This document shows positions 8,371 through 64,000 of a stretch of 64,000 nucleotides of DNA, piece after piece. The notes beneath the pieces were generated by a model. It was not told the origin of the DNA and searched no databases. It was given only the letters and a program-made list of their open reading frames with translations. The translations under genes were made by a program, and so were the position numbers. Numbering within the stretch: position 1 is the first letter of the stretch; every line of letters begins with the position of its first letter. The DNA comes from Tolypothrix brevis GSE-NOS-MK-07-07A (GTDB lineage Bacteria > Cyanobacteriota > Cyanobacteriia > Cyanobacteriales > Nostocaceae): contig JAHHIJ010000024.1 of NCBI GenBank assembly GCA_019358985.1, positions 35,659-99,658 on the forward strand, written 5' to 3'.

Positions 8371-11118
8371 ACATGTAATCGGGATTTGAATCCAAAATTC
8401 GGTACCTGACTTTGGTTGCGAATTACATTTGAAGACACCACCATGCTTGTTTACCACAATTTGGTAACTAATTGATAGACCTAAGCCAGTACCTTTTCCC
8501 ACTGGCTTTGTGGTAAAAAACGGATCAAATATTCGCGTTTTGATGTCTTCGGGCATTCCGGAACCATTATCTTTGATGCGAATCACCACTTGATCGTTGT
8601 TTATAACTTCGGTACTAATGCGAATTTGGGAGCGATCGCTTATAATTCCAGGGCTTTTTTCCAGTGATTCTTCTAAAGCATCAATGGCATTGCTTAAAAC
8701 ATTCATAAACACCTGATTTAATTGTCCGGCATAGCATTCTATTAAAGGTAGGTTGTCGTACTCTTTAATTACCTCAATACCGCGACTGTTTGGTGCTGGT
8801 TTCAAACGATGCTGTAAAATGAGTAACGTGCTATCAATACCTTCGTGAATGTCAACTTTTTTCATCTGGGCTTCGTCAAGCCTGGAGAAACTCCGTAAAG
8901 ACAGGACAATCTGACGAATGCGATCGGTTCCTACTTTCAACGACGACAGTATTTTGGGCAAATCTTCGGCAATAAATTCTAAGTCTATATCTTCTGAGCG
9001 ATCGCAAATCTCAGGGCTAGGGTTAGGATACTCTTGTTGATAAAGAGCTAACGTACTAAGTAAACCGTTAGCGTATTCAGAGACAGGGCTAAGATTGGCA
9101 TAGATAAAGTTTATGGGGTTGTTAATTTCGTGTGCCACACCAGCCACCAATTGTCCTAAACTGGACATTTTCTCAGTTTGGATTAATTGGGTTTGAGTTT
9201 GTTGTAATTCTTCTAGCGCTTGAGCGAGTTGTTCTGCTTGATGCTTGGTTTGGGCAAGCAATTCAGCTTGCTGGAGCGCTACCCCAAGTTGCACCGCAAT
9301 TTGACTGAAGAAATTAACTTCAATATCATGCCATTCGCGAGATCCAGAGTGTTGATAAGTTGCTAACAAACCCCAAAGTTTTTGTCCGACAAAGATGGGA
9401 GCAAGCACAAAAGCGTGAATCTGAAACTGCTCTAGATTGTCGATATGACACTGAGTAAACCCCATCTTGTAGATGTCATTTACTGCAAATGTTTCATCGT
9501 TGCGGTAGCGTCCTCCCTGTGTAGCTTGTAAGTAAGTGTCGTTCCAAACAGTATTAAGACCTAGTTTGTACTCATCATTCAAGCAGTTGGGACTAGCAGC
9601 TTCAAAATTACCGACAAATTCACCACCCCAATCAGAATCAAAGCGATAAACAGAAACACGATCAGTTTTTAATAGTTGACAAACCTCTTTAGCAGTTGTT
9701 TGAAAAATGGTATCGGTGTCAAGAGACTCACGAATTTTGGCAATGACTCCAAACACAGCTTGTTGCTGTTGACTTGTCCGTCGCAGTTCAACGGTGCGCT
9801 TTTTAACTTGATTTTCTAAGTCGGTATTAAAGGTTTGTACTTGTTGGTATAATTCATATTGCTCACATGCCGAGGAAAAATGTTTACCGATTTCTTCAGC
9901 TAGTTGAATCTCTTCAAACGTCCATTCCTGAGCCTGTGCCTGTTTAAATTCACGCCAAATATCAAATGATAGACGGGGTTGGAGTTGCCGCTTGTCACCA
10001 TCACATTGACCTGCCCACAGAGTTTCTGTGTCTATTTCATCTCTAAAAATACTTAAATAACCGAGTAATTGCTGACGATAATGAAGCGGAATCATCAAGA
10101 TGCTGCGAATTTTGGTTGATTGAAAAGCAGCTTGTAAAGTTCGTAAATTTGGAGTTTTATATATATCTGAAATAGCCCAAATATCATAATATTTACCAGA
10201 CTTGTAGTGTTCCTGCCAAACGTTATACTGCTCCATCAATGGATATATTGTTTGTTCTGATATTGCAGGTTGTTTTCCACTAATATAAAGTTTGACAGCA
10301 TCGCTTCCAGGTATTAAACATTCCGCGAAACTTCTGAAGCTGCGATTTTGATAATTAAAAGCTTCATTTCTAATACAAAGTCTGCCACCAGAACCGCCAA
10401 AAGCAACAATAGCTGCTTCTAAAGCTGGCTGTAATACAATTGTCGGCAGTGAATGTAATAAAGTCGCAATGCGGCTAACGATCGCTTCTCGTTCAGCTTT
10501 TTCACGAGCTTGAGTTAAAAGTGTACTGTGTGCGATCGCTATCTCTAACTGATCTACCACAATCTGTAACATTTCCAGTTCATCTTCCCCAACAGAACGC
10601 GGTTGCGAGTGGTGAGATACCAACAGTCCCCAGAGTTTTTCGTCTACCAGAATCGGCACTACTAGAGATGACTGTACACCCATTGCGGTCAAATATTCAA
10701 CATGACAAGAGTCTACAGGACGATAACGAAAATCTTCAGATATTATTTCTTTGGTTTGGCTGTCATACACAGGACTTTGACCAATTTTGGCTTCGTCCAC
10801 ATTTACAAGCGATCGCACTCGTGATTTAATAAATAATTCCCGTGCATGAGGTGGAATATCCGAAGCCGGAAAATTAAGCCCTAACAAAGATGGTAAGGAG
10901 CGATCGTTTATAGATTCACCAATGACTTGACCGCTATTATCGACATTAAATTTATAAATCATCACTCGATCTGTGCCGAGAAACCAACGCACCTCTCCCA
11001 CTGTTGCTATGAGAATATCTTGCAGTTCTAGCGTCAGACGAATACGATTTGTGATGCGATGCAGCAAATTTTCTTGATTTCGACTTATCCGCAAGTCTTC
11101 TTCTCTGGTAAAGGTCAT
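8362..11118 (-). CDS. Multi-GAF (phytochrome/cyanobacteriochrome-like) sensor histidine kinase
   Basis: 918 residues from MTFTREEDL (11118). Domain order: phytochrome-like GAF with SDIPPHARELF and DSCHVEYLTAMGVQSSL (Cys-His pair, the usual bilin attachment position); a second divergent GAF; a third GAF with QCHIDNLEQFQIHAFV, which again has a Cys-His; a coiled-coil linker; the dimerisation domain with phospho-acceptor His in GVAHEINNPINF; then an ATPase domain with N-box NVLSNAIDALEE, DNGSGMP and GKGTGLGLSI. It probably senses light through one or two bilins, or redox/ligands if bilins are absent, and phosphorylates an unseen response regulator. An upstream in-frame extension (to 11208) would add one hydrophobic segment; I consider it unlikely. 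Confidence 0.88.
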   Translation of the reverse strand: MTFTREEDLRISRNQENLLHRITNRIRLTLELQDILIATVGEVRWFLGTDRVMIYKFNVDNSGQVIGESINDRSLPSLLGLNFPASDIPPHARELFIKSRVRSLVNVDEAKIGQSPVYDSQTKEIISEDFRYRPVDSCHVEYLTAMGVQSSLVVPILVDEKLWGLLVSHHSQPRSVGEDELEMLQIVVDQLEIAIAHSTLLTQAREKAEREAIVSRIATLLHSLPTIVLQPALEAAIVAFGGSGGRLCIRNEAFNYQNRSFRSFAECLIPGSDAVKLYISGKQPAISEQTIYPLMEQYNVWQEHYKSGKYYDIWAISDIYKTPNLRTLQAAFQSTKIRSILMIPLHYRQQLLGYLSIFRDEIDTETLWAGQCDGDKRQLQPRLSFDIWREFKQAQAQEWTFEEIQLAEEIGKHFSSACEQYELYQQVQTFNTDLENQVKKRTVELRRTSQQQQAVFGVIAKIRESLDTDTIFQTTAKEVCQLLKTDRVSVYRFDSDWGGEFVGNFEAASPNCLNDEYKLGLNTVWNDTYLQATQGGRYRNDETFAVNDIYKMGFTQCHIDNLEQFQIHAFVLAPIFVGQKLWGLLATYQHSGSREWHDIEVNFFSQIAVQLGVALQQAELLAQTKHQAEQLAQALEELQQTQTQLIQTEKMSSLGQLVAGVAHEINNPINFIYANLSPVSEYANGLLSTLALYQQEYPNPSPEICDRSEDIDLEFIAEDLPKILSSLKVGTDRIRQIVLSLRSFSRLDEAQMKKVDIHEGIDSTLLILQHRLKPAPNSRGIEVIKEYDNLPLIECYAGQLNQVFMNVLSNAIDALEESLEKSPGIISDRSQIRISTEVINNDQVVIRIKDNGSGMPEDIKTRIFDPFFTTKPVGKGTGLGLSISYQIVVNKHGGVFKCNSQPKSGTEFWIQIPITCKV

Positions 11119-36510: not shown

Positions 36511-39500
36511 ATGAAACTTAATTGGAAAACGCTTTTTCTCTTGACTACATGTTGCACTCTGGGTTTGATGACCAGCGTTAGAGCGCAAGTTTCCCCTGAT
36601 GGAACATTATCTACCACTGTTACCAACCCGGATAACTTAAATTTCACCATCAATGATGGGAATCGAGTTGGAGGAAACCTTTTTCACAGCTTCAGAGAAT
36701 TTTCTGTCCCCAATGGTGGTTCGGCTGTTTTCCAAAATGCTTTGGATGTGCAGAATATTATCAGCCGTGTTACCGGAGGTTCTTTATCTCAAATTAATGG
36801 TTTAATTCAGGCTCAAGGTAGCGCTAACTTATTTTTACTCAATCCGGCTGGTATTTCCTTTGGACAAAATGCTCGTTTAAGTATTGGTGGTTCATTTTTT
36901 GCCACCACAGCTGATAGTTTATTGTTTGGTGACGGGATTGAATTTAGTGCCACCAATCCCCAAGCACCATTATTAACCGTAAATATTCCCATTGGTTTGC
37001 GATTTCGAGATAATCCGGGAAATATTACTAATCAATCTGTAGTGCAGGAGAACAATTCTCCTGTAGGACTTCAGGTAAATCCAGGAAACTCCTTGGCGCT
37101 GGTGGGTGGTAACGTCAGTTTAGAACAGGGTGGAAGACTGACAGCAGCAGGAGGAAGAATTGAGTTAGGAGGTTTGGCAGGAGCGGGAACTGTCGGATTA
37201 CAGACTACTGGAAATACCTTTACGTTGAACTTCCCTGCTAATGGTTTGTCAAATGTCAGTTTACTTGATGATGCACGAGTAGCCGTGCGGAGCAATGGGG
37301 GAGGAGAGATTGCAGTTAACACTAATATTTTTACAGCAACCAATGGTGGACGATTGGTAGGGGGTTTTGAAGGTATCGCAACAAGCGCAACAAGAAACGG
37401 AGGCGATATTACTGTCAATTCCAATGAGTTTAACATTTCTGGTGTTGGGCAGAGTGGAAGTGGGGCTCAAATCGCTCAACAAGTAGTAGATGGTGCTTCT
37501 GGCAATGCTGGTAATATCGTTGTCAATACCAAATCCTTTAATGCTTCTTCAGGGGCGCAGTTGCAAAATACTGTACTGTCTAGAGGAACAGGAAATGCAG
37601 GAAACATCTCTATCACTAGTAATTTACTATCCTTAACAAACGCTGTAATAAATTCCAGTACCTCCGGACAAGGGAATGCAGGCGATATATCACTACAAGT
37701 TGGTGACGCGATCGCTTTAAGTGACTCTAGTTTAATTACCGCCAATGTACAGACGGGAGGTTCAGGCACAGGTGGCGATATCGACATTCGTGGGCGATCG
37801 CTTACCCTCACAGGTGGTTCGCAAATCCAAGCTGGTCTTTTTCGTCAAGTAGACGATATTCCTGGCGGTATTGGTACAGGAGGAAGTATCAAGATTAATG
37901 CCACGGATTTTATCGATATTTCTGGTTTCAATCCTGTTTCGCAACTCCAGAGTGGAATATTTGCTCCCGCCGAAACAGGCTCAACAGGACCTGGGGGTAG
38001 TATAAATATTACTACTGGTGCTTTTCGTTTAACAAACTTTGGAATTGTAATTGCTGGAACTGCGAATGGTAATAACGGAGGCGATATTACCATAAATGCC
38101 AAGACCTTTGAAGCAACAAATGGACAAGTTCAAACAATTCTTATTGGACAGGCAGAAGCTGATGGATTATTCAGTGCTGGTGATATTCAGTTAAATGTCA
38201 CAGATTCTGTGAGTCTCAAAGATGGTTCTATAATAAATTCCAGCACCTCTGGCAGAGGAAATGCAGGCAATATATCACTACAAGTTGGTGACGCGATCGC
38301 TTTAACTAATGGTGCCCAAATAAATTCCAGCACCTCCGGAATAGGAGATGCAGGCGATATATCACTACAAGTTGGTGACGCGATCGCTTTAAGTGACTCT
38401 AGTTTTATCATCACCAATGTACAGGCAGGAGGTTCAGGCATAGGTGGCGATATCGATATTCGGGGGCGATCGCTTACCCTCACAGGTGGTTCGCAAATCC
38501 AAGCTGGTCTTTTTCGTCAAGTAGACGATATTCCTGGTGGTATTGGTACAGGAGGAAGTATCAAGATTAATGCCACAGATTTTGTTGATATTTCTGGTTT
38601 CAATCCTGTTTCACGACTCCAAAGTGGAATATTTGCTCCCGCCGAAACAGGCTCAACGGGACCTGGGGGTAGTATAGATATTACTACTGGTGCTTTTCGT
38701 TTAACAAACTTTGGAATTATAACTGCTAGAACTGCGAATGGTAATAACGGAGGCAATATTACCATAAATGCCAAGACCTTTGATGCAACAAATGGACAAG
38801 TTCAAACAATTCTTTCTGGACAGGCAGAAGCTGGTAGATTATTCAGTGCTGGTGATATTCAGTTAAATGTCACTGATTCTCTGAGTCTCAAAGATGGTTC
38901 TCTAATAGATTCCAGCACCTCCGGAATAGGGAATGCAGGCAACGTCACGATTAATGCCTCTGATATTTCATTGAATGGGGCTGGTAGTGCTATTTCTAGT
39001 TCTGTAGAAGTTGGAGCTACTGGTAAAGGTGGTGATATCAATATCCAAACAAGAACCCTGTCTTTAACTAATGGTGCTGAAATATTAGCCCTAACTCGTG
39101 GAGATGGTATTGCAGGAAACATTCAAGTTAATGCCACAGATTCTATTTTTCTAAATGGCGTTGCTCCCATAGTACTTCCCGATGCCAGGGCTGGTGGCTT
39201 TTCTAGCGGTTTGTTCTCTAGCTCTGAAGATACAAGTAGCGGTGCTGGAGGTCAAATTTTGGTGGAAACACCTAATTTAAGAATATTAGATGGAGGCGTT
39301 ATCAGCGCTAGAAGCAGAAGCGCGGCGAATGCCGGCAACATTACAGTTAATTCTCAAAACGTAGAATTGAGAGGTGGTGGTCAAATTCTGGCTACAGCTT
39401 TCAATGGAGGCAATGCAGGTAATATTGATGTGACTGCGGATAACATAACAATTTCCGGTGCTGATCCCACTTTAAATACTCGATTTAACCAAGTAGCTCA

Positions 39501-40383
39501 ACAGTTTAGTCGGGATATAGCCGAACGAGCTATTGACCCCGTACAACCAGAAAGTGGAATATTTGTCAATAGCACGGGTACAGGACAAGGCGGTAATCTA
39601 TCCATTACAGGAAATAGCTTAACCCTCGATCGCGGAATTATCAACGCCTCAACTCAATCAGGTAATGGTGGTGATATTACACTGAACTTACGAAACTTTA
39701 TCCGGTTGCGTAACGAAAGCCTCATTTCTGCTAACGCACGCGGTGAACAAGGTGGAAACGGCGGTAGCATCACAATCAACACGCCTTTCATTGTCGCTTT
39801 TCCCCAAAATAATGACATTATCGCTAACGCTGTTAGTGGTGACGGTGGACGAGTATCAATCAACCGTAGCGCTAATCTATTTGGGATAGCCCCACGACGT
39901 CGAGCAGATGTTCCAGGTTTAAATCCGAGAAATCTACCCACAAGTGACATCACTGCCTTTTCAGAGCAAAATTTAAACTTTGGTGACAACGTACAAGTTA
40001 ATTCTCCAGATGTTGACCCCAGTCGCGGGTTAGTTGAACTACCAGAAGCTGTCACCGATCGCACACAACAAATTGCTCAAAATCCTTGTAGACAAGGTTT
40101 CGGCAATGAATTTGTTGTCACCGGACGCGGTGGTTTCCCAACAACTCCCAATGAAACTCTCAGCAGTGATAATGTTCGCGTTGATTTGCTACAACCTGTT
40201 GCCAGTTCCGGCAATTCTCGTAGTGTAACTAAAAAACCCGTAACCACTGTTACTGCCAGACGCGTACCTGCCCAAGGATGGATATTCAACGACAAAGGTC
40301 AAGTAGTTCTCACAGCATACGATCCCACCAACACAGGTTCTCAACGTTCTTTTCGCACTGCCGCTGCTTGCCCTGCCCGTTAA
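36511..40383 (+). CDS. TpsA-type two-partner secretion exoprotein (copy 1)
   Basis: 1290 residues. Signal peptide (LFLLTTCCTLGLMTSVRAQ), then the TPS secretion domain (about 26-280) with NPDNLNFTINDGNRVGGNLFHSF and NLFLLNPAGISFG (the NPNGI-like motif). A long beta-helix of imperfect Gly/Asn/Ile repeats follows (GNAGNISITSNLLSL and similar), then a Cys-containing C-terminal region (QNPCRQGFGNEFVVTGRGG, PAQGWIFNDKGQVV) shared with copy 2. It is expected to be secreted through TpsB and displayed or released as a large filament. A 672-bp segment is duplicated in frame in its centre. Function (adhesin, aggregation or other) is not determined by sequence. Confidence 0.9.
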   Translation: MKLNWKTLFLLTTCCTLGLMTSVRAQVSPDGTLSTTVTNPDNLNFTINDGNRVGGNLFHSFREFSVPNGGSAVFQNALDVQNIISRVTGGSLSQINGLIQAQGSANLFLLNPAGISFGQNARLSIGGSFFATTADSLLFGDGIEFSATNPQAPLLTVNIPIGLRFRDNPGNITNQSVVQENNSPVGLQVNPGNSLALVGGNVSLEQGGRLTAAGGRIELGGLAGAGTVGLQTTGNTFTLNFPANGLSNVSLLDDARVAVRSNGGGEIAVNTNIFTATNGGRLVGGFEGIATSATRNGGDITVNSNEFNISGVGQSGSGAQIAQQVVDGASGNAGNIVVNTKSFNASSGAQLQNTVLSRGTGNAGNISITSNLLSLTNAVINSSTSGQGNAGDISLQVGDAIALSDSSLITANVQTGGSGTGGDIDIRGRSLTLTGGSQIQAGLFRQVDDIPGGIGTGGSIKINATDFIDISGFNPVSQLQSGIFAPAETGSTGPGGSINITTGAFRLTNFGIVIAGTANGNNGGDITINAKTFEATNGQVQTILIGQAEADGLFSAGDIQLNVTDSVSLKDGSIINSSTSGRGNAGNISLQVGDAIALTNGAQINSSTSGIGDAGDISLQVGDAIALSDSSFIITNVQAGGSGIGGDIDIRGRSLTLTGGSQIQAGLFRQVDDIPGGIGTGGSIKINATDFVDISGFNPVSRLQSGIFAPAETGSTGPGGSIDITTGAFRLTNFGIITARTANGNNGGNITINAKTFDATNGQVQTILSGQAEAGRLFSAGDIQLNVTDSLSLKDGSLIDSSTSGIGNAGNVTINASDISLNGAGSAISSSVEVGATGKGGDINIQTRTLSLTNGAEILALTRGDGIAGNIQVNATDSIFLNGVAPIVLPDARAGGFSSGLFSSSEDTSSGAGGQILVETPNLRILDGGVISARSRSAANAGNITVNSQNVELRGGGQILATAFNGGNAGNIDVTADNITISGADPTLNTRFNQVAQQFSRDIAERAIDPVQPESGIFVNSTGTGQGGNLSITGNSLTLDRGIINASTQSGNGGDITLNLRNFIRLRNESLISANARGEQGGNGGSITINTPFIVAFPQNNDIIANAVSGDGGRVSINRSANLFGIAPRRRADVPGLNPRNLPTSDITAFSEQNLNFGDNVQVNSPDVDPSRGLVELPEAVTDRTQQIAQNPCRQGFGNEFVVTGRGGFPTTPNETLSSDNVRVDLLQPVASSGNSRSVTKKPVTTVTARRVPAQGWIFNDKGQVVLTAYDPTNTGSQRSFRTAAACPAR
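37681..38945 (+). repeat. 672-bp in-frame internal duplication in tpsA copy 1
   Basis: The segment starting GGCGATATATCACTACAAGT at 37681 reappears at 38353 and stays nearly identical to about 38945. The unit of 224 codons keeps the beta-helix register. Differences are scattered single bases. Confidence 0.8.
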
Positions 40384-55389: not shown

Positions 55390-55473
55390 TTTTATTGCTA
55401 TAGTTTGAACAACTAAAAACATCGAAACCGTCCTAGAGACGTTCCGGCGGAACGTCTCTACAATTGTTAATTA

Positions 55474-55586
55474 GGCGTTGCTGATTAGATGTATGAAAAT
55501 GATTCTGCGCTCTGGTCAAAACCCTTGATTAGACGTAGCATTGCTACGTCTCTACATGCGGATTCATACCTGAATTCAGCAACGCC
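55474..55586. repeat. MITE-like element, TIR GGCGTTGCTGAWT (family 3)
   Basis: 113 bp. Left end GGCGTTGCTGATT, right end GAATTCAGCAACGCC; the flanks GTTAATTA extend the inverted match. It contains the palindrome with core TAGCATTGCTA (55530-55555). A separate palindrome with core TTCCGGCGGAA precedes it (55433-55461). Confidence 0.65.
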
Positions 55587-55587
55587 G

Positions 55588-56205
55588 TTAATTAACATCA
55601 GTTCTCAAAACAAGATTATACTTTTCCAACAATTCCCAAGGAACATCCGGAAGATTAAGAAGTATATCATTCCATTGACTATGAGCTTGTAAAGTCTCCA
55701 CAACTATCGAAAATGGCTCAGAGAAAATGTTCTCAAAGTCTGCTTCTTGTGGAAATTGAATTTTATAAGCTAATTTTTCTTTTGGAGGGACAAATTGAGC
55801 ATCAATATTATTACGATTTCCTCTTGCATCAACACGATACCAACCTATTTGAGGCAAGTAGACTGCATTGAAACCATGTAAGGTATAAGGTTCACCATTA
55901 TCGTTAATGCTCAATCTTTGATAGCAAAATCCTGCGGGAATGCTATTAGCTCTTAGTAGTGCTGCTAGCAAATGACTCTTGGCAAAGCAATAACCTGTTT
56001 TGTATTTGAGTACATCTGAAGCTCGACAGGTTACAGGATTCATTTGATAGTCGTAGCTATGATAAATTTCATCCCTTACCCACTCAAAACAAGCTTTGGC
56101 GATCGCTTCCGATGTTTCATATTTTAATGCAATCTTTTTCCCAAGTTCCACAATTGTCGGATGTTGCCAATCAATAACTTCACTTACTTTGAGATATTCT
56201 TCCAT
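55588..56205 (-). CDS. Transglutaminase-like (cysteine peptidase fold) protein
   Basis: 205 residues. The transglutaminase core triad is visible: Cys in GYCFAKSHLLAALLRA, His in YTLHGFNAVYL and Asp in GWYRVDARGN. No signal peptide, so cytoplasmic. Bacterial members act as peptidases, amidases or cross-linking enzymes; substrate unknown. Its stop codon lies immediately beside the family-3 repeat element. Confidence 0.87.
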   Translation of the reverse strand: MEEYLKVSEVIDWQHPTIVELGKKIALKYETSEAIAKACFEWVRDEIYHSYDYQMNPVTCRASDVLKYKTGYCFAKSHLLAALLRANSIPAGFCYQRLSINDNGEPYTLHGFNAVYLPQIGWYRVDARGNRNNIDAQFVPPKEKLAYKIQFPQEADFENIFSEPFSIVVETLQAHSQWNDILLNLPDVPWELLEKYNLVLRTDVN

Positions 56206-56351: not shown

Positions 56352-57293
56352 CTATTTTTCGTGTTGTTCGTAAGCAGCGACAATTCGCTGAACTAAAGCA
56401 TGACGCACGACATCTTTTTGAGAAAATTCACAAAAGGAAATGCCTTGAACATTTCTTAAAATGTGCAACGCTACCGATAACCCAGATTCTTGGTGAGGTA
56501 ACAAATCGGTTTGTGTTATGTCACCTGTAATCACCATCCGAGAATGAAAGCCCAAACGAGTCAAAACCATCTTCATTTGAGCAGGTGTGGTATTTTGAGC
56601 TTCGTCTACAATGATAAAAGCGTTATTGAGAGTGCGTCCCCGCATGTAGGCTAGGGGTGCAACTTCGATTACACCGCGTTCCATCAAATTCGGTACTTTT
56701 TCGGGGTCGATAAATTCATTGATGGCGTCGTAGAGTGGACGGAGATAAGGATTTACTTTTTGTTGTAAGTCTCCAGGCAAAAAGCCGAGTTTTTCACCAG
56801 CTTCGACGGCAGGACGAGTTAAAATAAGCTTTTCAAATTCGTTGGCAAGAAGTGCTTGCACCGCAACGACAACAGCGAGGTAAGTCTTACCAGTACCAGC
56901 AGGACCGACGCAGAATGTCAAGTCTCGCTGACGTAGAGCGTTAATGTACTGTCGCTGTCGAAAAGTTTTGGCACGGATTTCTTCTCCTTTGCGAGTTCTG
57001 GCAAGAACATCTCGCTGCAACTCGTGTAACTCTTCTTCGCGATCGCCATCCAAAGCCTGACGAGCTGTTAAAATATCGGCGCTAGTGATGGTATTGCCTT
57101 GAGTCCACAAATCTTCGAGCGATCGCACTAATCGACTAGCTAAATCAATTTGTTTTTCTGTACCAGCAATGTGTAATTCCTGTCCCCGTAGCACCAGGTT
57201 AGCTCCTGTTTGCCTGGATATGGTTTTGAGATTTTCTTCATGTTGTCCCGCTAACGCTAGCGCGCTCTCGATATTTGGCAGTTGAATTGGCAA
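56352..57293 (-). CDS. PhoH-family ATPase
   Basis: 313 residues. N-terminal KH-like region (about 15-70, NLVLRGQELHIAGTEKQIDLASRLV), then the PhoH P-loop domain with Walker A CVGPAGTGKTYLAV and Walker B FIIVDEAQNTTP, and conserved LTRPAVEAGEKLGFLPGDL and GDITQTDLP-like motifs. PhoH-like proteins are RNA-associated NTPases tied to RNA maturation with YbeY. Length and arrangement are typical. Leftmost core gene before the accessory region. Confidence 0.93.
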   Translation of the reverse strand: MPIQLPNIESALALAGQHEENLKTISRQTGANLVLRGQELHIAGTEKQIDLASRLVRSLEDLWTQGNTITSADILTARQALDGDREEELHELQRDVLARTRKGEEIRAKTFRQRQYINALRQRDLTFCVGPAGTGKTYLAVVVAVQALLANEFEKLILTRPAVEAGEKLGFLPGDLQQKVNPYLRPLYDAINEFIDPEKVPNLMERGVIEVAPLAYMRGRTLNNAFIIVDEAQNTTPAQMKMVLTRLGFHSRMVITGDITQTDLLPHQESGLSVALHILRNVQGISFCEFSQKDVVRHALVQRIVAAYEQHEK

Positions 57294-58106: not shown

Positions 58107-59168
58107 TCAATTTACCTTGAGAAATAGTATTAGATAAATTTGTACCTCAGTAGGATGCGGAGCGCGTTTCGCGTAACGCACTCCTGCTTCTTCTAGAACG
58201 TAAACAGTACCCGCAGGAACTGCATAACGTCCTCTAGAAAGCAATTTAGTGTCACCTTTCCCTCCCAACCGATAACGAAAGGGTATTGGACGATCAGTGA
58301 AAAGTGCTTCTACTTTCCAAACTGTACCTTCGTTGATTTCTTCATCTTGATTCTTAGCTGTTTGCAAACAAACAGGTACTCGCTTTGATAAACGATTGGA
58401 ACCCCAAACCGCAGGTGTAATTAAAGCAAAGCTAGTTTTTACAGGTTCAAAGAGCAAATTAGCGATCGCACTACAAATAGGTTCGCATCGCACATCAACC
58501 ATATGTCCCTCACCACCAAAGCGATACCAACCGGGTTTGAGTTCGGTATTGGAGAGATAAACTAAACAAGTTCCAGCATCCATCTGCACTGAGTTTTCTA
58601 GAAACAAACTCCCTTGCTCTTGATAATTTCTAATCGTATGTCGTTCGTTTTCTTCCAAATGTGGATGCAAATGTGATAAAAATTTCCAAGGATTTCTCTG
58701 GATTTCTTCGGGATTATCCCAGTTATTAATCCCTAACCAGGTATTACTCTCGTATTTATCGGTGGGACTTTTACCTTCTCTATTTAACCATGCTTGTTTT
58801 TCTTTGTCCCAACTCAAGCGATCGACAATTTTCCCATCTTTAACTAAATAATTCTTTGGAGTTGGTACATAAAAATTTTGTTCGGTTGATGTTAGCTCAT
58901 CTACATTCCCCCAAAATGGTCCCGCTAGCATCAAATCGCGGATATCTGCGTCTTTTTTGGAAGCTGCAAATAAACCCGATAAAGTTGCAGCACTGGGAGG
59001 AAAATGAGTACCAGAACGTCCGACTAAATTCTCTGGTGATAGGAATCTTCCCGCACTTCCGTAGAGTAAACCCAAGGGTTCAATGATGATTAAATGGGTA
59101 AAAGGAGGAGGATATTTTTCTTTCGTTGTATTTTCTGACACATTATCTGTAGTTTCTACTGCTGACAT
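58107..59168 (-). CDS. cmr3: Type III-B CRISPR protein Cmr3, altered C-terminus
   Basis: 353 residues. Cmr3 (Cas5-like RAMP) caps the 5' handle of crRNA in the Cmr complex. Family landmarks: HLIIIEPLGLLYGSAGRFLSPE, HFPPSAATLSGLFAA, LAGPFWG, YVPTPKNYLV, HTIRNYQEQGSLFLENSVQM and LSRGRYAVPAGTVYVLEE. After that the last 27 residues (AGVRYAKRAPHPTE...) are encoded by a dispersed repeat plus a shifted frame. The likely original tail, NLSNTISQGKLILRRYGLEP, is readable in another frame to a stop at 58060. Starts 13 bp inside the end of cmr2. No cmr1, cmr4, cmr5 or cmr6 follows. Confidence 0.85.
   Translation of the reverse strand: MSAVETTDNVSENTTKEKYPPPFTHLIIIEPLGLLYGSAGRFLSPENLVGRSGTHFPPSAATLSGLFAASKKDADIRDLMLAGPFWGNVDELTSTEQNFYVPTPKNYLVKDGKIVDRLSWDKEKQAWLNREGKSPTDKYESNTWLGINNWDNPEEIQRNPWKFLSHLHPHLEENERHTIRNYQEQGSLFLENSVQMDAGTCLVYLSNTELKPGWYRFGGEGHMVDVRCEPICSAIANLLFEPVKTSFALITPAVWGSNRLSKRVPVCLQTAKNQDEEINEGTVWKVEALFTDRPIPFRYRLGGKGDTKLLSRGRYAVPAGTVYVLEEAGVRYAKRAPHPTEVQIYLILFLKVN
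58152..58185. repeat. Dispersed repeat inserted in the 3' end of cmr3
   Basis: AGGATGCGGAGCGCG / GCGTAACGCACTCCT, a quasi-palindromic GC-rich sequence of a type seen scattered in cyanobacterial spacers. It interrupts the Cmr3 reading frame. Confidence 0.55.
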
Positions 59169-60844
59169 AGGTGAAATCCTACTTTCGCAAGGTTAATAAT
59201 CCAATTAGTTAAAGCTTTGTTGACTTTGTTTTGGTCGATTTCTTGAGAATTTTCCAGGAAATAACTTTTATCTTCGCCTAAAATTCCCGCATCAATCTTG
59301 ATTAAATCTGCTTTTTCTGGATGTAATTGCTTATTTTTATCTTTGATTACATCAAGATGCTTGGGAAAATATATTTCCACTAAACCCAATACCACATCCA
59401 AACCATCATCATCGAAAGCATGACGGGATTCTAAGACTGCGACATCGTTATATATGTGCGTCCAGTTTTGTTTCCCCTCTCTATCCCGATAACTCGACAA
59501 CAAACCAGCTTCTAACAACCACCAGGGACACACCCATTCTAAGTGATTACCGTTATTAAATAAAATGCGGAAAGCAATCCTGTCTCGTCCATTACTTTTT
59601 GCTGATTTTTCAGCATCTCCACAATGTTGCAATACATCCCGTTGCGGAATACCCGGAAAAGCCCAAACAAAACCAACACTAACAGTAATCTTCTTTTGTT
59701 CGTTTTTATTGACTTTATTTTCGTGCCAAATAGACGTTTTAAACTCGCTAAACCAATCAACATAATACCTTGGTTCTAATTTATCTCCGGAATCATCTTT
59801 ATCATAAAATACACCTAAAAAATCATCACCCCCTGCATAAATAACCCGACCCATTTTAAATGGTTTATTTTTGAACCATTTACCCCAATCTCGCATTTCT
59901 TTACTAAAAGCATGAGTTTTTTCTGGGTATTTTTTCAGATAATCACCAGCTTTATCACCATCCCCTTGGAACCAACCTTGAAAACCTCTATCTTGTTGCG
60001 TTTCACTATCAATTTTGTTCTTGTATTTATGTCGATTTAAATCTTTAAAAGATGACGGATGTAAATCTTTTGATATTTGTTTAATTTCTTCAATGAGCGC
60101 TTCAATATTTGCACCATCTTTGCCGAAAGTAAATTTAAAATGTTCAATTAAATTTTGAGAAACGCTTTCATAGGTAATCATTCGCTTGATTAACTCAGGA
60201 ATGCTGAGTTCTTCCTTTGGGTCGATAAATGATTCTCCTAATTTATCGCTGAGTGCTTTGTACAAAGCTGTGACATCTTGCTTTTCTTGCTGGTAGTCGT
60301 ATTTACGAGCATCTACAATTTGACCCAGTTTTGGATATGCGATCGCATCCGCACCAGAAAGGGTAGAACTCTCACCTTGCCAGTTTATCCCAGTCCAATC
60401 ACGTCCGCGTTTTTTCTCATTAAACTTTTCTCGAACATCACTTATAGTATCACCTGGATTACCTTGAACCCAGAAAAATTCCCATGCATATTTCGTCCAC
60501 AAACCCCAACTTCTTCTCCAAGATGTGTAATCACCTTCGACATTTTCCTCAATCCATTCACGACAGGTTTCCGTAACACATTCCCAAGCTTTATTTAGTG
60601 CATACTCTGCTTTTTTTTCTGGAAAATCACCCTCAATAATAATTTGATTGGGCATTCCTTGAGTGATATTTGGTAAAGCTGGAGAAATAACTTCACAACC
60701 ATATTGTTTTGCAGCGTTACAAATCACCCAAGATAAATATGAAAGTAGATAAGAACTTCCATACAAATCTCGCAATTTCCGCGATTTCTCGATAAACCCC
60801 TGCACAGGTGAAAAGGTGATTACAGTGTAGATTTTGTTTGTCAT
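59156..60844 (-). CDS. cmr2: Type III-B CRISPR Cas10/Cmr2 protein, short form
   Basis: 562 residues from ATG 60844 (MTNKIYTVITFSPVQGFIEKS). Cas10 is the large subunit that makes cyclic oligoadenylate in type III systems. The Cmr2 N-terminal motif SPVQGFIEKSRKLRDLYGSSYLLS, the GDGDKAGDYLK segment (about 294) and the cyclase motif YAGGDDFLGVF (GGDD at about 338) are intact. No N-terminal HD nuclease motif is present, and the protein is shorter than typical 800-1000-residue Cmr2. It overlaps cmr3 by 13 bp. The upstream Csx3-like fragment is on the same strand. Confidence 0.88.
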   Translation of the reverse strand: MTNKIYTVITFSPVQGFIEKSRKLRDLYGSSYLLSYLSWVICNAAKQYGCEVISPALPNITQGMPNQIIIEGDFPEKKAEYALNKAWECVTETCREWIEENVEGDYTSWRRSWGLWTKYAWEFFWVQGNPGDTISDVREKFNEKKRGRDWTGINWQGESSTLSGADAIAYPKLGQIVDARKYDYQQEKQDVTALYKALSDKLGESFIDPKEELSIPELIKRMITYESVSQNLIEHFKFTFGKDGANIEALIEEIKQISKDLHPSSFKDLNRHKYKNKIDSETQQDRGFQGWFQGDGDKAGDYLKKYPEKTHAFSKEMRDWGKWFKNKPFKMGRVIYAGGDDFLGVFYDKDDSGDKLEPRYYVDWFSEFKTSIWHENKVNKNEQKKITVSVGFVWAFPGIPQRDVLQHCGDAEKSAKSNGRDRIAFRILFNNGNHLEWVCPWWLLEAGLLSSYRDREGKQNWTHIYNDVAVLESRHAFDDDGLDVVLGLVEIYFPKHLDVIKDKNKQLHPEKADLIKIDAGILGEDKSYFLENSQEIDQNKVNKALTNWIINLAKVGFHLCQQ

Positions 60845-60977
60845 AGACAATAGGCGATTGCGCCATAACTATTTTACTGATTGGCTCTAATGATCCTGAA
60901 TTCAGTTCATTAATTTATACATTAATACGAAGGCTAAAGCTTCTATGCTTTGCTTATTAGGCTATTTCGGTAATTAT

Positions 60978-61067
60978 TAAACATCTCCGAAAATGAACTA
61001 TGCGTTGTCCACAACCCTTGTATAGACGAAGAATTTCGCGTCTCTACATTTTTTCCGGAGATGTCTA
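60978..61067 (-). repeat. MITE-like element, family 1
   Basis: 90 bp, TAAACATCTCCGAAAA at the left and CCGGAGATGTCTA at the right, with an imperfect internal palindrome (core GAAGAATTTCGCG) and ATGCGTTGTCCACAACCCTT in the reversed orientation. It separates cmr2 from the Csx3-like fragment. Confidence 0.7.
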
Positions 61068-61106
61068 TTTGGATTCTCTTCGATTTCACATTTCTTCAAG
61101 ATTTTC

Positions 61107-61475
61107 TTAACACTTCGTCAAATGAATCAACACCTCAGCTAATGCTTGCACCATCGGACGAGTTGCTAGATTTTCTCCCCGCTTCAAACTATGCACGCTA
61201 CCTGTGAGTAAAGGTGCTTTTTCGAGCAATTCGCTTGTTTTCTCTTGCCAACCATCAGCAAACAAAACTTCATCTTCCACAGCATCTAACTGACTGTGAA
61301 TCTTTCCAATGATTTTTAGCCCTAGTAGTTGACAAAAGTCTTCCCACTCTGCAAATTTATTTACATCTCCCGACAAAATAACTGCGTGGGTTGCTGGCTG
61401 CATAATTGTCTTATTTTCTGGTGAAGTTTTGCCGCCAACATCAATAATATTTATTAACTGGGTTTCAACAACCAT
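61107..61475 (-). pseudogene. Csx3-like C-terminal fragment abutting the CRISPR array
   Basis: 122 codons. The peptide LINIIDVGGKTSPENKTIMQ, ATHAVILSGDVNKFAEWEDF and TGSVHSLKRGENLATRPMVQ resembles, as I recall it, the C-terminal extension of larger cyanobacterial Csx3-type (cyclic-oligoadenylate ring nuclease) proteins; the identification needs a profile search. The N-terminal part is absent. The first five codons (MVVET) are read from the complement of CRISPR repeat 1, so the coding sequence stops being native at the repeat border. An internal ATG at 61403 would give 98 residues. Confidence 0.5.
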
Positions 61476-61640
61476 CCCGGCTAGGGGTGGGTTGAAAGTT
61501 AGCGAAGTTAAGTTTCAGCGCATATCTGATAAGTTTCAACAACCATCCCGGCTAGGGGTGGGTTGAAAGAACAGTTTGCTCCCGCTCTCCAACCAGGGTT
61601 CGAGTTTCAACAACCATCCCGGCTAGGGGTGGGTTGAAAG
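61462..61640 (+). CRISPR. CRISPR array, three 37-nt repeats, type V-K-like repeat
   Basis: Identical repeats at 61462-61498, 61533-61569 and 61604-61640: 5' part GTTTCAACAACCATCCCGGC, 3' part TAGGGGTGGGTTGAAAG. Two spacers of 34 nt (61499-61532 and 61570-61603). This repeat is the kind I know from cyanobacterial type V-K CASTs, where the spacer follows GTTGAAAG. No cas12k, tracrRNA, cas1, cas2 or cas6 was found nearby. Read on the plus strand, the array points to the transposon end and tRNA-Pro. Confidence 0.95.
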
Positions 61641-61670
61641 TATTATTTTAGTTTTCATCATTACAATTTT

Positions 61671-61704
61671 GTGAAGAGGGTTGAAAGGCGCACTTCGTTC
61701 GGGA
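61671..61704 (+). ncRNA. Delocalised homing crRNA: half repeat plus 17-nt tRNA-Pro guide
   Basis: 61671-61687 keeps only the 3' half of the repeat in degenerate form (GAAGAGGGTTGAAAG). The next 17 bases, GCGCACTTCGTTCGGGA (61688-61704), are identical to tRNA-Pro bases at 61939-61923 on the minus strand; position 18 mismatches. The target is preceded by GGTA, matching the GTN PAM of Cas12k. A truncated repeat with a short tRNA-matching guide outside the array is the known homing-guide design of type V-K CASTs. Confidence 0.85.
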
Positions 61705-61774
61705 TTTATCCTGAATATTTGCAGTTATATTAGAGTTTGGTGAAGGTTAAGCTTGAACCAGCCCCATAAAAAAG

Positions 61775-61886
61775 TCGGCGACATTAATTTGTTAACGACT
61801 ATCACAGCAAGTTCGACGACATTAATCTGTTAACAACGACATTAATTCGTTAATAACGACATTTAATTAGTTATTCGACATGTACA
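61775..61886 (-). mobile_element. Left end of a type V-K CRISPR-associated transposon (remnant)
   Basis: The end reads TGTACA at 61881-61886 and, inward, four copies of a CGACATTAATYTGTTAACRA-type motif at 61779, 61817, 61837 and 61857 (the last three spaced exactly 20 bp). A TGTACA terminus with tandem TnsB-type sites is the CAST end structure. It stops one base before the tRNA-Pro discriminator position, 53 bp from the PAM. The opposite end was not found by eye, and no tnsB, tnsC, tniQ or cas12k lies in the window. Confidence 0.8.
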
Positions 61887-61887
61887 A

Positions 61888-61961
61888 TCGGGATGACTGG
61901 ATTCGAACCAGCGGCCCCTTCGTCCCGAACGAAGTGCGCTACCAAGCTGCGCTACATCCCG
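61888..61961 (-). tRNA. tRNA-Pro (anticodon CGG)
   Basis: 74 nt. Acceptor arm CGGGATG pairs with CATCCCG, followed by discriminator A; D arm TAGCGCAGCTTGGTAGCGCA; anticodon stem CTTCG/CGAAG with loop TTCGGGA, so the anticodon is CGG; T arm contains GGTTCGAATCC. CCA is not encoded. It is the target site of the neighbouring homing guide. It is flanked by a CAST end at its 3' side and a tyrosine-recombinase gene beyond its 5' side. Confidence 0.95.
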
Positions 61962-62158: not shown

Positions 62159-62224
62159 ATAATGCTCATTATACGGTTTATATAACCGTTCTATAACCAA
62201 CTTTGAGCATTATTTGAGCATTAT
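62159..62224 (+). promoter_or_regulatory. Operator-like repeats over the integrase start
   Basis: ATAATGCTCA (62159-62168) and two direct copies of its complement TGAGCATTAT (62204-62213 and 62215-62224). The last covers the start codon. Between them is the palindrome ACGGTTTATATAACCGT (62173-62189). Suggests autoregulation or recombinase binding. Confidence 0.5.
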
Positions 62225-63650
62225 GGCAAACAGCGATAAAGTACCCAACAGTAGGGCATCCAAGGGTACTGTGAGCATCAGGTTAGACAGTGGGAGTGTG
62301 AAAGCTTGCTTCCCTAGAACGCACTTCGCAGATGAAAAACAACTTAAGCTAGCAACAGGTATCCCTAACGATGCTAACTGGGAAGCGACAGCTAACAAGC
62401 TACAACGACGGTTACAGCTAGAGTTAGAAGAAGGCAAGCTTGCTACTGCTGACGGTAGCTTCAATGTAGAGCGCTACCGTGAGATTCTAGAGGAGTACGG
62501 GTTAAGGGCAAAGTTAAGGGTAGTTAAGTCAGTTACTACGTCTGACGGGCAATTACCCCCCAAGCCAGAGTTAAGTATCTTGGAAGTCTGGGATATGTAC
62601 TGTGAGCATATCAAGCCTAGACTCGCAATAACTACTTATGAAACTATTTACACGGGAGATTACAGACGTTACCTTTGTTCCGCTATTAATCAAGTAGGAG
62701 AAGATTCTCTATCAATTAGAAATTGGTTAGTTACTAATCGCGATCCTCATAATGCCAAAAAAATATTAAGTCTTTTAGGTAAGGCTTTTGCTTTATCAAT
62801 TCGTCAAGGTAGATTTTTCGGTCAAAATCCTTTTGAGGGATTAAGTGAAGAAATACAAGACAAAAAGCGAATTAAAGAAATTAATCAAAATGACTACGAT
62901 GAAGATAAGCAAGTAGAAAATAAAAATTTAGCTTTTACTTGGGATGAAGCTGAAACTATAATGGAATTTCTGAGAAATTCAAATAACGCAAAGTTTAGTC
63001 ACTGGTATCATTTTATAAGTTTCAAATTTTTAACAGGGTGTAGGCAAGGTGAGGCTATTGCTTTATGGTGGTGCGATATCAATTGGGAGAGAGAACATAT
63101 TTTAATCAGACGTTCATACAGTAGTAGGTTAAAAAAATTTAAACCTACCAAAAACGAAACAACGCGAATTTTTCCTATGCCTAAAAACGGTAGACTTTGG
63201 AATTTATTAAAAGAATTACCTTTGGGTAATCACAATGAAGTTGTTTTTAAGAATCGAGAGAATAGCACAATTCATCATTGTTCCTTTGGGGATAACTGGA
63301 AGGGAACGACGGCTCTTAGGAAAAATAAAACCTATAATTATCCCGGAATATGCCAGACATTAGTAAATGAGGGTAAATTATCCAAATATCTACCCTCATA
63401 CAACACACGACATACTTTCATTACTCATCAAATTTACGACTTGGGGCGTGATAAAGACATTGTTAATGCTTGGTGTGAGCATAGCGAGAAAATATCGGTT
63501 AAATACTATCGAAACACTGCTAACATAGCAACACAAATTAACCCTGAGTTCCCAGCTAATGACCTATCTAGCCAAAAGTCAAAAGTAGAGGCATTAGAAG
63601 AGCAAATAGAGCAAATGAAGGCAATGATTGAAAAGTTAACCAACAAGTAG
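62223..63650 (+). CDS. Tyrosine recombinase / site-specific integrase
   Basis: 475 residues from ATG 62223 (MANSDKVPNSRASKGTVSI). N-terminal arm-binding-like region (to about 125), core-binding domain (about 125-230), catalytic domain with Arg in FLTGCRQGEAIAL, box II YNTRHTFITH, EHSEKISVKYYRN with the His and probable nucleophilic Tyr, and a C-terminal coiled coil (VEALEEQIEQMKAMIEKL). Such integrases drive phages or islands into tRNA genes. It lies 260 bp from tRNA-Pro on that gene's 5' side. Element partners are outside the window. AT-rich codon use and operator-like repeats fit mobile origin. Confidence 0.9.
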   Translation: MANSDKVPNSRASKGTVSIRLDSGSVKACFPRTHFADEKQLKLATGIPNDANWEATANKLQRRLQLELEEGKLATADGSFNVERYREILEEYGLRAKLRVVKSVTTSDGQLPPKPELSILEVWDMYCEHIKPRLAITTYETIYTGDYRRYLCSAINQVGEDSLSIRNWLVTNRDPHNAKKILSLLGKAFALSIRQGRFFGQNPFEGLSEEIQDKKRIKEINQNDYDEDKQVENKNLAFTWDEAETIMEFLRNSNNAKFSHWYHFISFKFLTGCRQGEAIALWWCDINWEREHILIRRSYSSRLKKFKPTKNETTRIFPMPKNGRLWNLLKELPLGNHNEVVFKNRENSTIHHCSFGDNWKGTTALRKNKTYNYPGICQTLVNEGKLSKYLPSYNTRHTFITHQIYDLGRDKDIVNAWCEHSEKISVKYYRNTANIATQINPEFPANDLSSQKSKVEALEEQIEQMKAMIEKLTNK

Positions 63651-63712: not shown

Positions 63713-64000
63713 TGTGTTTGAGTAAATCACTTAAAGTGATTTGAAAATACTAAACAACTAACTCAATTACTTACTTACTTACTTTTTTAACTAGGTTATT
63801 ACTTACTAAGGTTTTACTTTAAGTGATTACTTTAAGTAAAAATTTTATAAACAAACTAAGCTAACTAAAGTTATTAGGACTTACGCATTGACAAAGTTGT
63901 CAAAAGGTGAAGTGAGTGAAAACAGGGAAATTTTCGGGCGATCGCTAATTGACAGGGGTATTGAAAGACGGATAATACCTATGTTGTCTTGATGATCTAG
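63713..64000. other. AT-rich region with palindromic operator-like sites
   Basis: No gene supported. AAATCACTT-A-AAGTGATTT (63724-63742) is a palindrome; ACTTTAAGT occurs twice near 63817-63837 in related context (AAGTGATTACTTTAAGTAAA). TTACTTACTTACTTAC lies near 63769. TAGGACTTACGCA at 63875-63887 is a transposable-element end, directly followed by the palindrome TTGACAAAGTTGTCAA (63888-63903). Confidence 0.5.

Follow-up and report, generated by a model that had tools for sequence, protein, structure and literature searches.

A probable left-end remnant of a type V-K CAST retains its homing guide beside tRNA-Pro in Tolypothrix brevis

The window analysed in this study, a stretch of 64,000 nucleotides from Tolypothrix brevis GSE-NOS-MK-07-07A (contig C65, positions 35659-99658, its right edge coinciding with the contig end), contains a single tRNA gene detected by ARAGORN, tRNA-Pro(CGG), and next to it a succession of features comprising a small CRISPR array, a truncated repeat, a 17-nt spacer and a DNA end with tandem sites (Table 1, where positions are those of the window). 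An earlier note on this DNA had described the 17 bases behind the degenerate half repeat as identical to the tRNA gene and the corresponding protospacer as preceded by GTA, and both descriptions hold, with the spacer and its target forming an exact inverted pair of 100% complementarity and GTA being read directly in front of the protospacer. Guide and tRNA run in the same sense. Since a crRNA derived from this guide would share that sense, it would not be expected to pair with the transcript of the tRNA gene, and we have thus rejected the idea that the neighbouring type III system uses this guide to target tRNA-Pro at the level of RNA. On the 5' side of the tRNA resides a gene of the Phage_integrase family (62214-63650), which found no match in 13 loci (L082-L094) when searched by tblastn at an E-value of 1e-5.

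Table 1. Features of the tRNA-Pro locus and of the adjoining genes.
Feature	Position	Strand	Remark
phoH	56352-57293
cmr3	58107..59168	-
cmr2/cas10b of type III-B operon	59156..60850	-	PADLOC Cas10b E 1e-189; Pfam
csx3 C-terminal fragment	61107..61475	-	from about residue 214 of 332; PADLOC Csx3-AAA E 1.2e-34, profile 189-286/286
csx3/first-repeat junction	61461..61462	.	homology breakpoints in relatives
Residual CRISPR array	61462..61640	+	3 repeats of 37 nt and 2 spacers of 34 nt
Array repeats	61462-61498, 61533-61569, 61604-61640	+	perfect copies; Rfam CRISPR-DR15
Truncated repeat R* (GAGGGTTGAAAG)	61676..61687	+	name R* as used in PMC9938897
Anchor (homing) spacer	61688..61704	+	17 nt
CAST left end (LE)	61705..61880	+	likely terminus 61880; sequence inward from the tRNA: TGTCGAATAACTAATT
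Four repeats resembling TnsB sites	61780..61873	+	GACATTAATnTGTTAA starting at 61780, 61818 and 61838, variant GACATTTAATTAGTTA at 61858; predicted to bind TnsB
7-bp stretch from likely terminus to tRNA 3' end	61881..61887	.	contains TGTACA; varies among relatives
Anchor protospacer GCGCACTTCGTTCGGGA inside tRNA-Pro	61923..61939	-	GTA PAM at 61940-61942
tRNA-Pro(CGG), attachment-site gene	61888..61961	-	directed toward the element; ARAGORN; Rfam RF00005, 64.7 bits

The 20-bp tandem sites that the earlier note had recognized near the end are present as three copies and a variant, and a search of both strands of the window allowing two mismatches detected no further end sites of this kind. In their sequence, they appear homologous to the TnsB-type sites of intact V-K elements, and the end as a whole resembles both ends of the intact CAST of a relative (G009), whose left terminus reads TGTCGAATAAC and whose right terminus reads TGTCGCATAAC, each located beside a run of T. 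In one relative (G005), no end-like sequence is found in the 360 bases behind tRNA-Pro. The position of the terminus, which had been placed at the hexamer TGTACA, is shifted by comparison with relatives by 6 bp inward. In an alignment of the window with loci L022, L025 and L082, identity extends up to ...TTATTCGACA at 61880 and is lost from 61881 onward, and the bases that separate the terminus from the tRNA differ from locus to locus. Because identity stops at this position and the bases beyond it vary, the element most likely terminates with TTCGACA at 61880, which puts 59 bp between the PAM and the terminus, and the TGTACA outside (61881-61886) would constitute variable filler. The previously proposed spacing of 53 bp is thus correct as the distance from the PAM to the end of TGTACA at 61886, whereas the distance to the terminus likely amounts to 59 bp. 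On its own, the hexamer is weak evidence, since it occurs 11 times across the window. At the same tRNA, other relatives carry a different type of end whose terminus resembles TGTACA (as for example L026, L035 and L036), and the hexamer in the window could be what is left of an earlier insertion. Elsewhere in the window, two copies of TGTACA, at 37746 and 38418, have nearly identical surroundings and lie within a long ORF (36511-40383) that contains near-identical internal repeats.

The described arrangement recurs in other organisms. A pattern scan of a genome collection for R* and its guide identified 21 other stretches, all from cyanobacteria and two from one Mastigocoleus genome, with a tRNA-Pro target a few hundred base pairs from the guide in 20 of them and no such target within the stretch examined in L031. 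By tblastn, a match to cas12k was obtained in 12 of the 21 guide-bearing stretches; among the nine others, L021, L025, L029 and L038 span at most about 1.1 kb upstream and are thus uninformative, and L019, L027, L030, L035 and L036 cover 2.4-7.3 kb. A whole element at the same tRNA-Pro is present in Scytonema hyalinum WJT4-NPBG1 (G009; L086/L098 and L022), where the left end, R* with the guide, the array and cas12k are accompanied by cargo, genes for TniQ, a TnsC/TniB-type protein and a Mu/rve-type TnsB, and a right end whose terminus is of the same type as the left one. Its Cas12k comprises 658 residues (NCBIfam) and its TnsB 579, with the types of TniQ, TnsC and TnsB assigned by Pfam, and TTTTT flanks the element on both sides, a 5-bp sequence that as T homopolymer is weak as a target duplication. 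This element has the repeat, R*, guide and tRNA target in common with the window and is 84% identical to it over the 536 bp between array and tRNA, but it differs in possessing cas12k, cargo, tniQ, tnsC, tnsB and a right end. The interval between its cas12k and array (L086) contains the motif AACCCTC, which is complementary to GAGGGTT of R* and not to GGTGGGTT of the full repeat, as if the putative tracrRNA were a better fit to the homing guide than to the array. In Hassallia byssoidea VB512170 (G002; L025/L082), left end and guide are nearly identical to those of the window, although it lacks one of the 20-bp sites, its array has six repeats compared to three, and the filler in front of the tRNA differs; its contig stops just past the array.

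Among characterized systems, AcCAST and ShCAST are experimentally shown, functional elements that home by a delocalised short guide, a property that is likewise found at the window locus, which in contrast is a relic. The repeat of AcCAST is presumably the same 37-mer as that of the window. A published survey of AnCAST and 118 cyanobacterial CAST systems describes V-K left ends as having the tRNA directed toward the end and an array close by, R* as measuring about 12 nt and the anchor spacer usually 17 nt with a match usually to a tRNA, and targets as having a GTN PAM at a distance of 46-82 nt from the left end, with one exception of 147 (PMC9938897). The window resembles these elements in the order of tRNA and left end, R*, the 17-nt spacer, the GTN PAM and the 37-nt repeats, and its GTA together with the 59 bp to the terminus (53 to TGTACA) lies within the range stated there. 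It departs from these elements in that cas12k, the regulator, tnsB-tnsC-tniQ, the right end and the tracrRNA were not found and in that the array abuts a truncated csx3. The interpretation of the locus as the left end of a V-K CAST with its own tRNA-targeting short guide is thus borne out by a layout that fits the published description (PMC9938897) and by its recurrence in 20 of the 21 stretches.

The earlier note had proposed a search of the genome for cas12k, tnsB, tnsC, tniQ and the right end, and no such set was found in the T. brevis assembly, a draft of 74 contigs that is 99.75% complete, with protein and right-end queries taken from the intact relative G009. For cas12k, the search yielded one match, which is located on contig C13 and split between frames, and none upstream of the array in the window. 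The best match to TnsB reached 24 bits over 46 residues (contig C36), TnsC found no match with the G009 query, in a search that was run without a control, and TniQ was detected only as a 46-residue fragment on contig C62. In the whole genome, the query for a right end of this type retrieved only the left end itself, with the next best match at an E-value of 0.04, and the window contains no second cluster of end sites. The same query also failed to report the differently typed ends on C62 and might thus overlook a right end that has diverged, and gaps in the draft assembly could contain a transposase. A BLAST search of the window for a tracrRNA homologue gave no convincing match (best E-value 0.02). 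Among plasmids, 182 records match, but for none of them does the match extend over 80% of the query length; in the best 10 of these 182, the match is confined to the tRNA in nine and comprises 107 bp of the array in one, a Calothrix plasmid. Because cas12k, tracrRNA, a transposase gene and a right end were not found together with the left end, the locus is a remnant and not a working element. With one end found and neither a transposase nor a tracrRNA detected, the remaining module is not expected to move by itself.

On the side opposite to the tRNA, the array adjoins a broken csx3-cmr locus. The 5' two thirds of csx3 are missing and its C-terminal third abuts the first repeat. The type III-B operon is incomplete, with cmr2 and cmr3 as the only representatives of cmr2-cmr6 besides the csx3 fragment, and no operon genes were found in the window between cmr3 and phoH. 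The homology of the window to G002 and G009 on its right-hand side begins at 61462, and the csx3 homology of seven relatives stops at 61460-61467, at the boundary of the first repeat or slightly inside it. In relatives, csx3 exists in one piece, with 332 residues in L043 and matches of 328-332 residues in all five of L110-L114. The full-length gene is followed by cmr2 and cmr3 in L110, L111, L112 and L114 and by fragments of cmr2 only in L113; L110 and L111 contain additional genes downstream of cmr3, which from the gene order we read as cmr4-cmr6. Elsewhere in the T. brevis genome, the search for the missing 5' part of csx3 retrieved only two frames of 43-46% identity. A deletion that fused csx3 to the array is the simplest reading of this junction. 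The region of csx3, cmr and phoH has probably undergone rearrangement, since phoH and a transglutaminase gene sit on separate contigs in four genomes of the same genus. Insertion of a transposon as general cause of array truncation was considered and rejected, as csx3 is found at this place in the window and the neighbourhood of a tRNA-Phe in L035. For neither of the two 34-nt spacers was a target found among phages and plasmids (distant mode, E 1).

In light of these features, we consider the locus to be, with high probability, the surviving left end of a V-K CAST, whose R* and guide likely aimed the insertion and which likely lost its effector, its transposases and its right end, with a deletion joining csx3 to the array. 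That the guide directed the insertion preserved here, as the earlier note had proposed, is a well-supported part of what we infer. By analogy to known systems, a crRNA consisting of R* and the anchor spacer would pair with a tracrRNA in Cas12k and bind the tRNA-Pro gene, TniQ and TnsC would recruit TnsB, and the latter would join the ends just past the 3' end of the tRNA, which would thus stay intact. At a later stage, the middle of the element would have been lost and the array joined to csx3, a step for which absence is observed in the draft assembly and from which we infer the deletion.

Alternatively, the junction between csx3 and the array could be an assembly error that conceals an intact CAST at tRNA-Pro. 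We regard this as improbable, although assemblies often break at CRISPR repeats, the contig of L082 from Hassallia stops near its array and the junction is absent among the matches listed in 98 other genomes. An erroneous connection is countered by the fact that the csx3 homology of seven relatives reaches the repeat, and the missing parts are not simply misplaced, since neither TnsC nor an in-frame full-length cas12k was matched in the genome and TnsB only with 24 bits. Very unlikely is also a still functional element, whose cas12k, tracrRNA and Tns genes would either lie in an assembly gap or act in trans from the CAST on contig C13. The draft status of the assembly and the presence of this other V-K locus, which comprises cas12k, an array and a guide, leave some room for it, but the C13 cas12k is split between frames, the repeat and R* of that locus differ from those of the window, TnsC was not matched and TnsB only with 24 bits, and a right end of this type was not found. 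Additionally, the tracr region of C13 contains a 14-nt complement to the R* of that locus but none of at least 8 nt to the R* of the window, a contrast that is only suggestive since the R* of the intact relative likewise lacks a complement of at least 8 nt in its own tracr region.

An equally slim chance is accorded to an assignment of the array to the type III-B csx3-cmr system, which would restrict the CAST-derived part to R*, the guide and the end. Such affiliation would be in line with the direct adjacency of the array to csx3-cmr2-cmr3 and with a repeat that belongs to a general Rfam CRISPR family. It conflicts with the identical repeat located between cas12k and the guide in the CAST loci L022, L028 and L032, with the truncation of csx3 at the array, with the colinearity of array, R* and left end with L082 and L086, and with the absence of any copy of the 37-nt repeat, at up to 8 mismatches, in the five csx3 loci L110-L114 (20 kb each). 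A chance match of unrelated sequence to the tRNA gene, finally, has a negligible probability given an exact inverted match of 17 nt compared to a maximum of 11 nt for other 248-bp segments of the window (992 comparisons) and the recurrence of the arrangement in 20 of the 21 other stretches. We have also considered the cmr genes as CAST cargo; the same five csx3 relatives (20 kb each) are devoid of an array of this repeat, and the cmr genes may have been either cargo or a chromosomal neighbour.

The reading of the locus as a decayed V-K CAST places it in a series of states found in related organisms. In a comparison of the tRNA-Pro locus in ten genomes, G009 contains an intact element and three loci have kept the exact guide and lost the effector at the site, which are the window, G001, where no cas12k match is found genome-wide, and G038, where a cas12k match of 120 residues is left at the site and another cas12k is located elsewhere. 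The guide contains two mismatches in G036 and is broken in G008, which retains a 35-residue match to TnsB, and stubs of the left end are found in G004 and G006, the latter with two additional matches to cas12k (19 and 55 residues). The other two of the ten are G005, without an end in 360 bases, and G002, whose contig stops too early for an assignment. In a survey of 217 genomes of the family with a pattern of R* and guide (26 bases, up to 2 mismatches), 49 sites were found in 46 genomes, 35 of them exact and 14 with one or two mismatches, and a reversed control pattern gave no hit in the same genomes. Five of the 14 mismatched sites (G101, G123, G037, G212 and G214) differ only in the nine bases of R*, and in the other nine the guide is affected. 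A strong cas12k match, defined as at least about 385 bits so that weaker pieces may lie near other sites, is found within 5 kb of 18 of the 35 exact sites compared to none of the 14 mismatched ones (Fisher p 0.0006, in a sample of related genomes with some interfering contig ends and the window locus among the 35). The remaining 17 exact sites are without such a match in this distance, and in three of the 18 cases the neighbouring cas12k is itself damaged (G188, G193 and G213). Decay of such elements is thus common in the family.

Two of the surveyed genomes, G214 (L151/L152) and G123 (L153/L154), carry two sites with R* and guide in the same orientation at a distance of 29-30 kb. The distal site, with exact guide, a mutated R* and a piece of a left end, is followed by right-end-like sequence and matches to tnsB-tnsC-tniQ and, further on, by cas12k and the exact site beside tRNA-Pro. 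A matching 5-bp duplication was not found in these tandem elements. It appears that a newer element is here accompanied by an older one that decays behind it, and that tRNA-Pro was occupied more than once. In two loci of the earlier scan, L036 and L019, Tn7-like ends finishing with TGTACA are found in or beside a repeat of the tRNA-Pro CAST, just upstream of the array, which would be in line with the insertion of a different element into it.

Since the combined layout of guide and target has already been published, the locus adds a further, decayed example and not a new principle. The cited survey reports 12 degenerated Cas12k proteins (PMC9938897), and no description of orphan left-end modules was found in the literature searched. 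The value of the locus lies in illustrating a phase that RNA-guided transposons pass through, in which an exact guide and several end sites outlive effector and transposase. Orphan left-end modules at tRNA-Pro could be kept for target immunity, with their TnsB sites marking the tRNA gene as occupied and repelling incoming CASTs with the same type of end in the manner of a domesticated vaccination scar, a proposal we consider distinctly unlikely and whose strong form is mildly disfavoured by the tandem sites in G214 and G123. With the survey of the family at hand, the turnover at the homing site and a possible effect of leftover ends on immunity are directly testable.

Short dispersed repeats are located in the window at around 55434-55590, 60975-61070 and 63875-63978, the first of which gives about two dozen matches within the T. 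brevis genome, whereas the other two recur in relatives. Beyond the window, this genome contains further CAST-like loci. On contig C13 (L015, 9943-13541), a second V-K CAST relic resides beside tRNA-Ala(CGC), which comprises a MerR-type regulator, cas12k in two frames, an array and R*, with a guide that matches the tRNA at 16 of 17 positions and a pair of TGTACA-type termini separated by about 95 bp. On contig C62 (L156, 97001-107982), a stretch of 609 bp (9998-10606) is enclosed by inverted ends TGTACATTCGC...GCGAATGTACA, which are like those of some V-K elements, contains a C-terminal fragment of TniQ and is flanked by 5-bp sequences that differ from each other; it is possibly a miniature non-autonomous derivative of a CAST.
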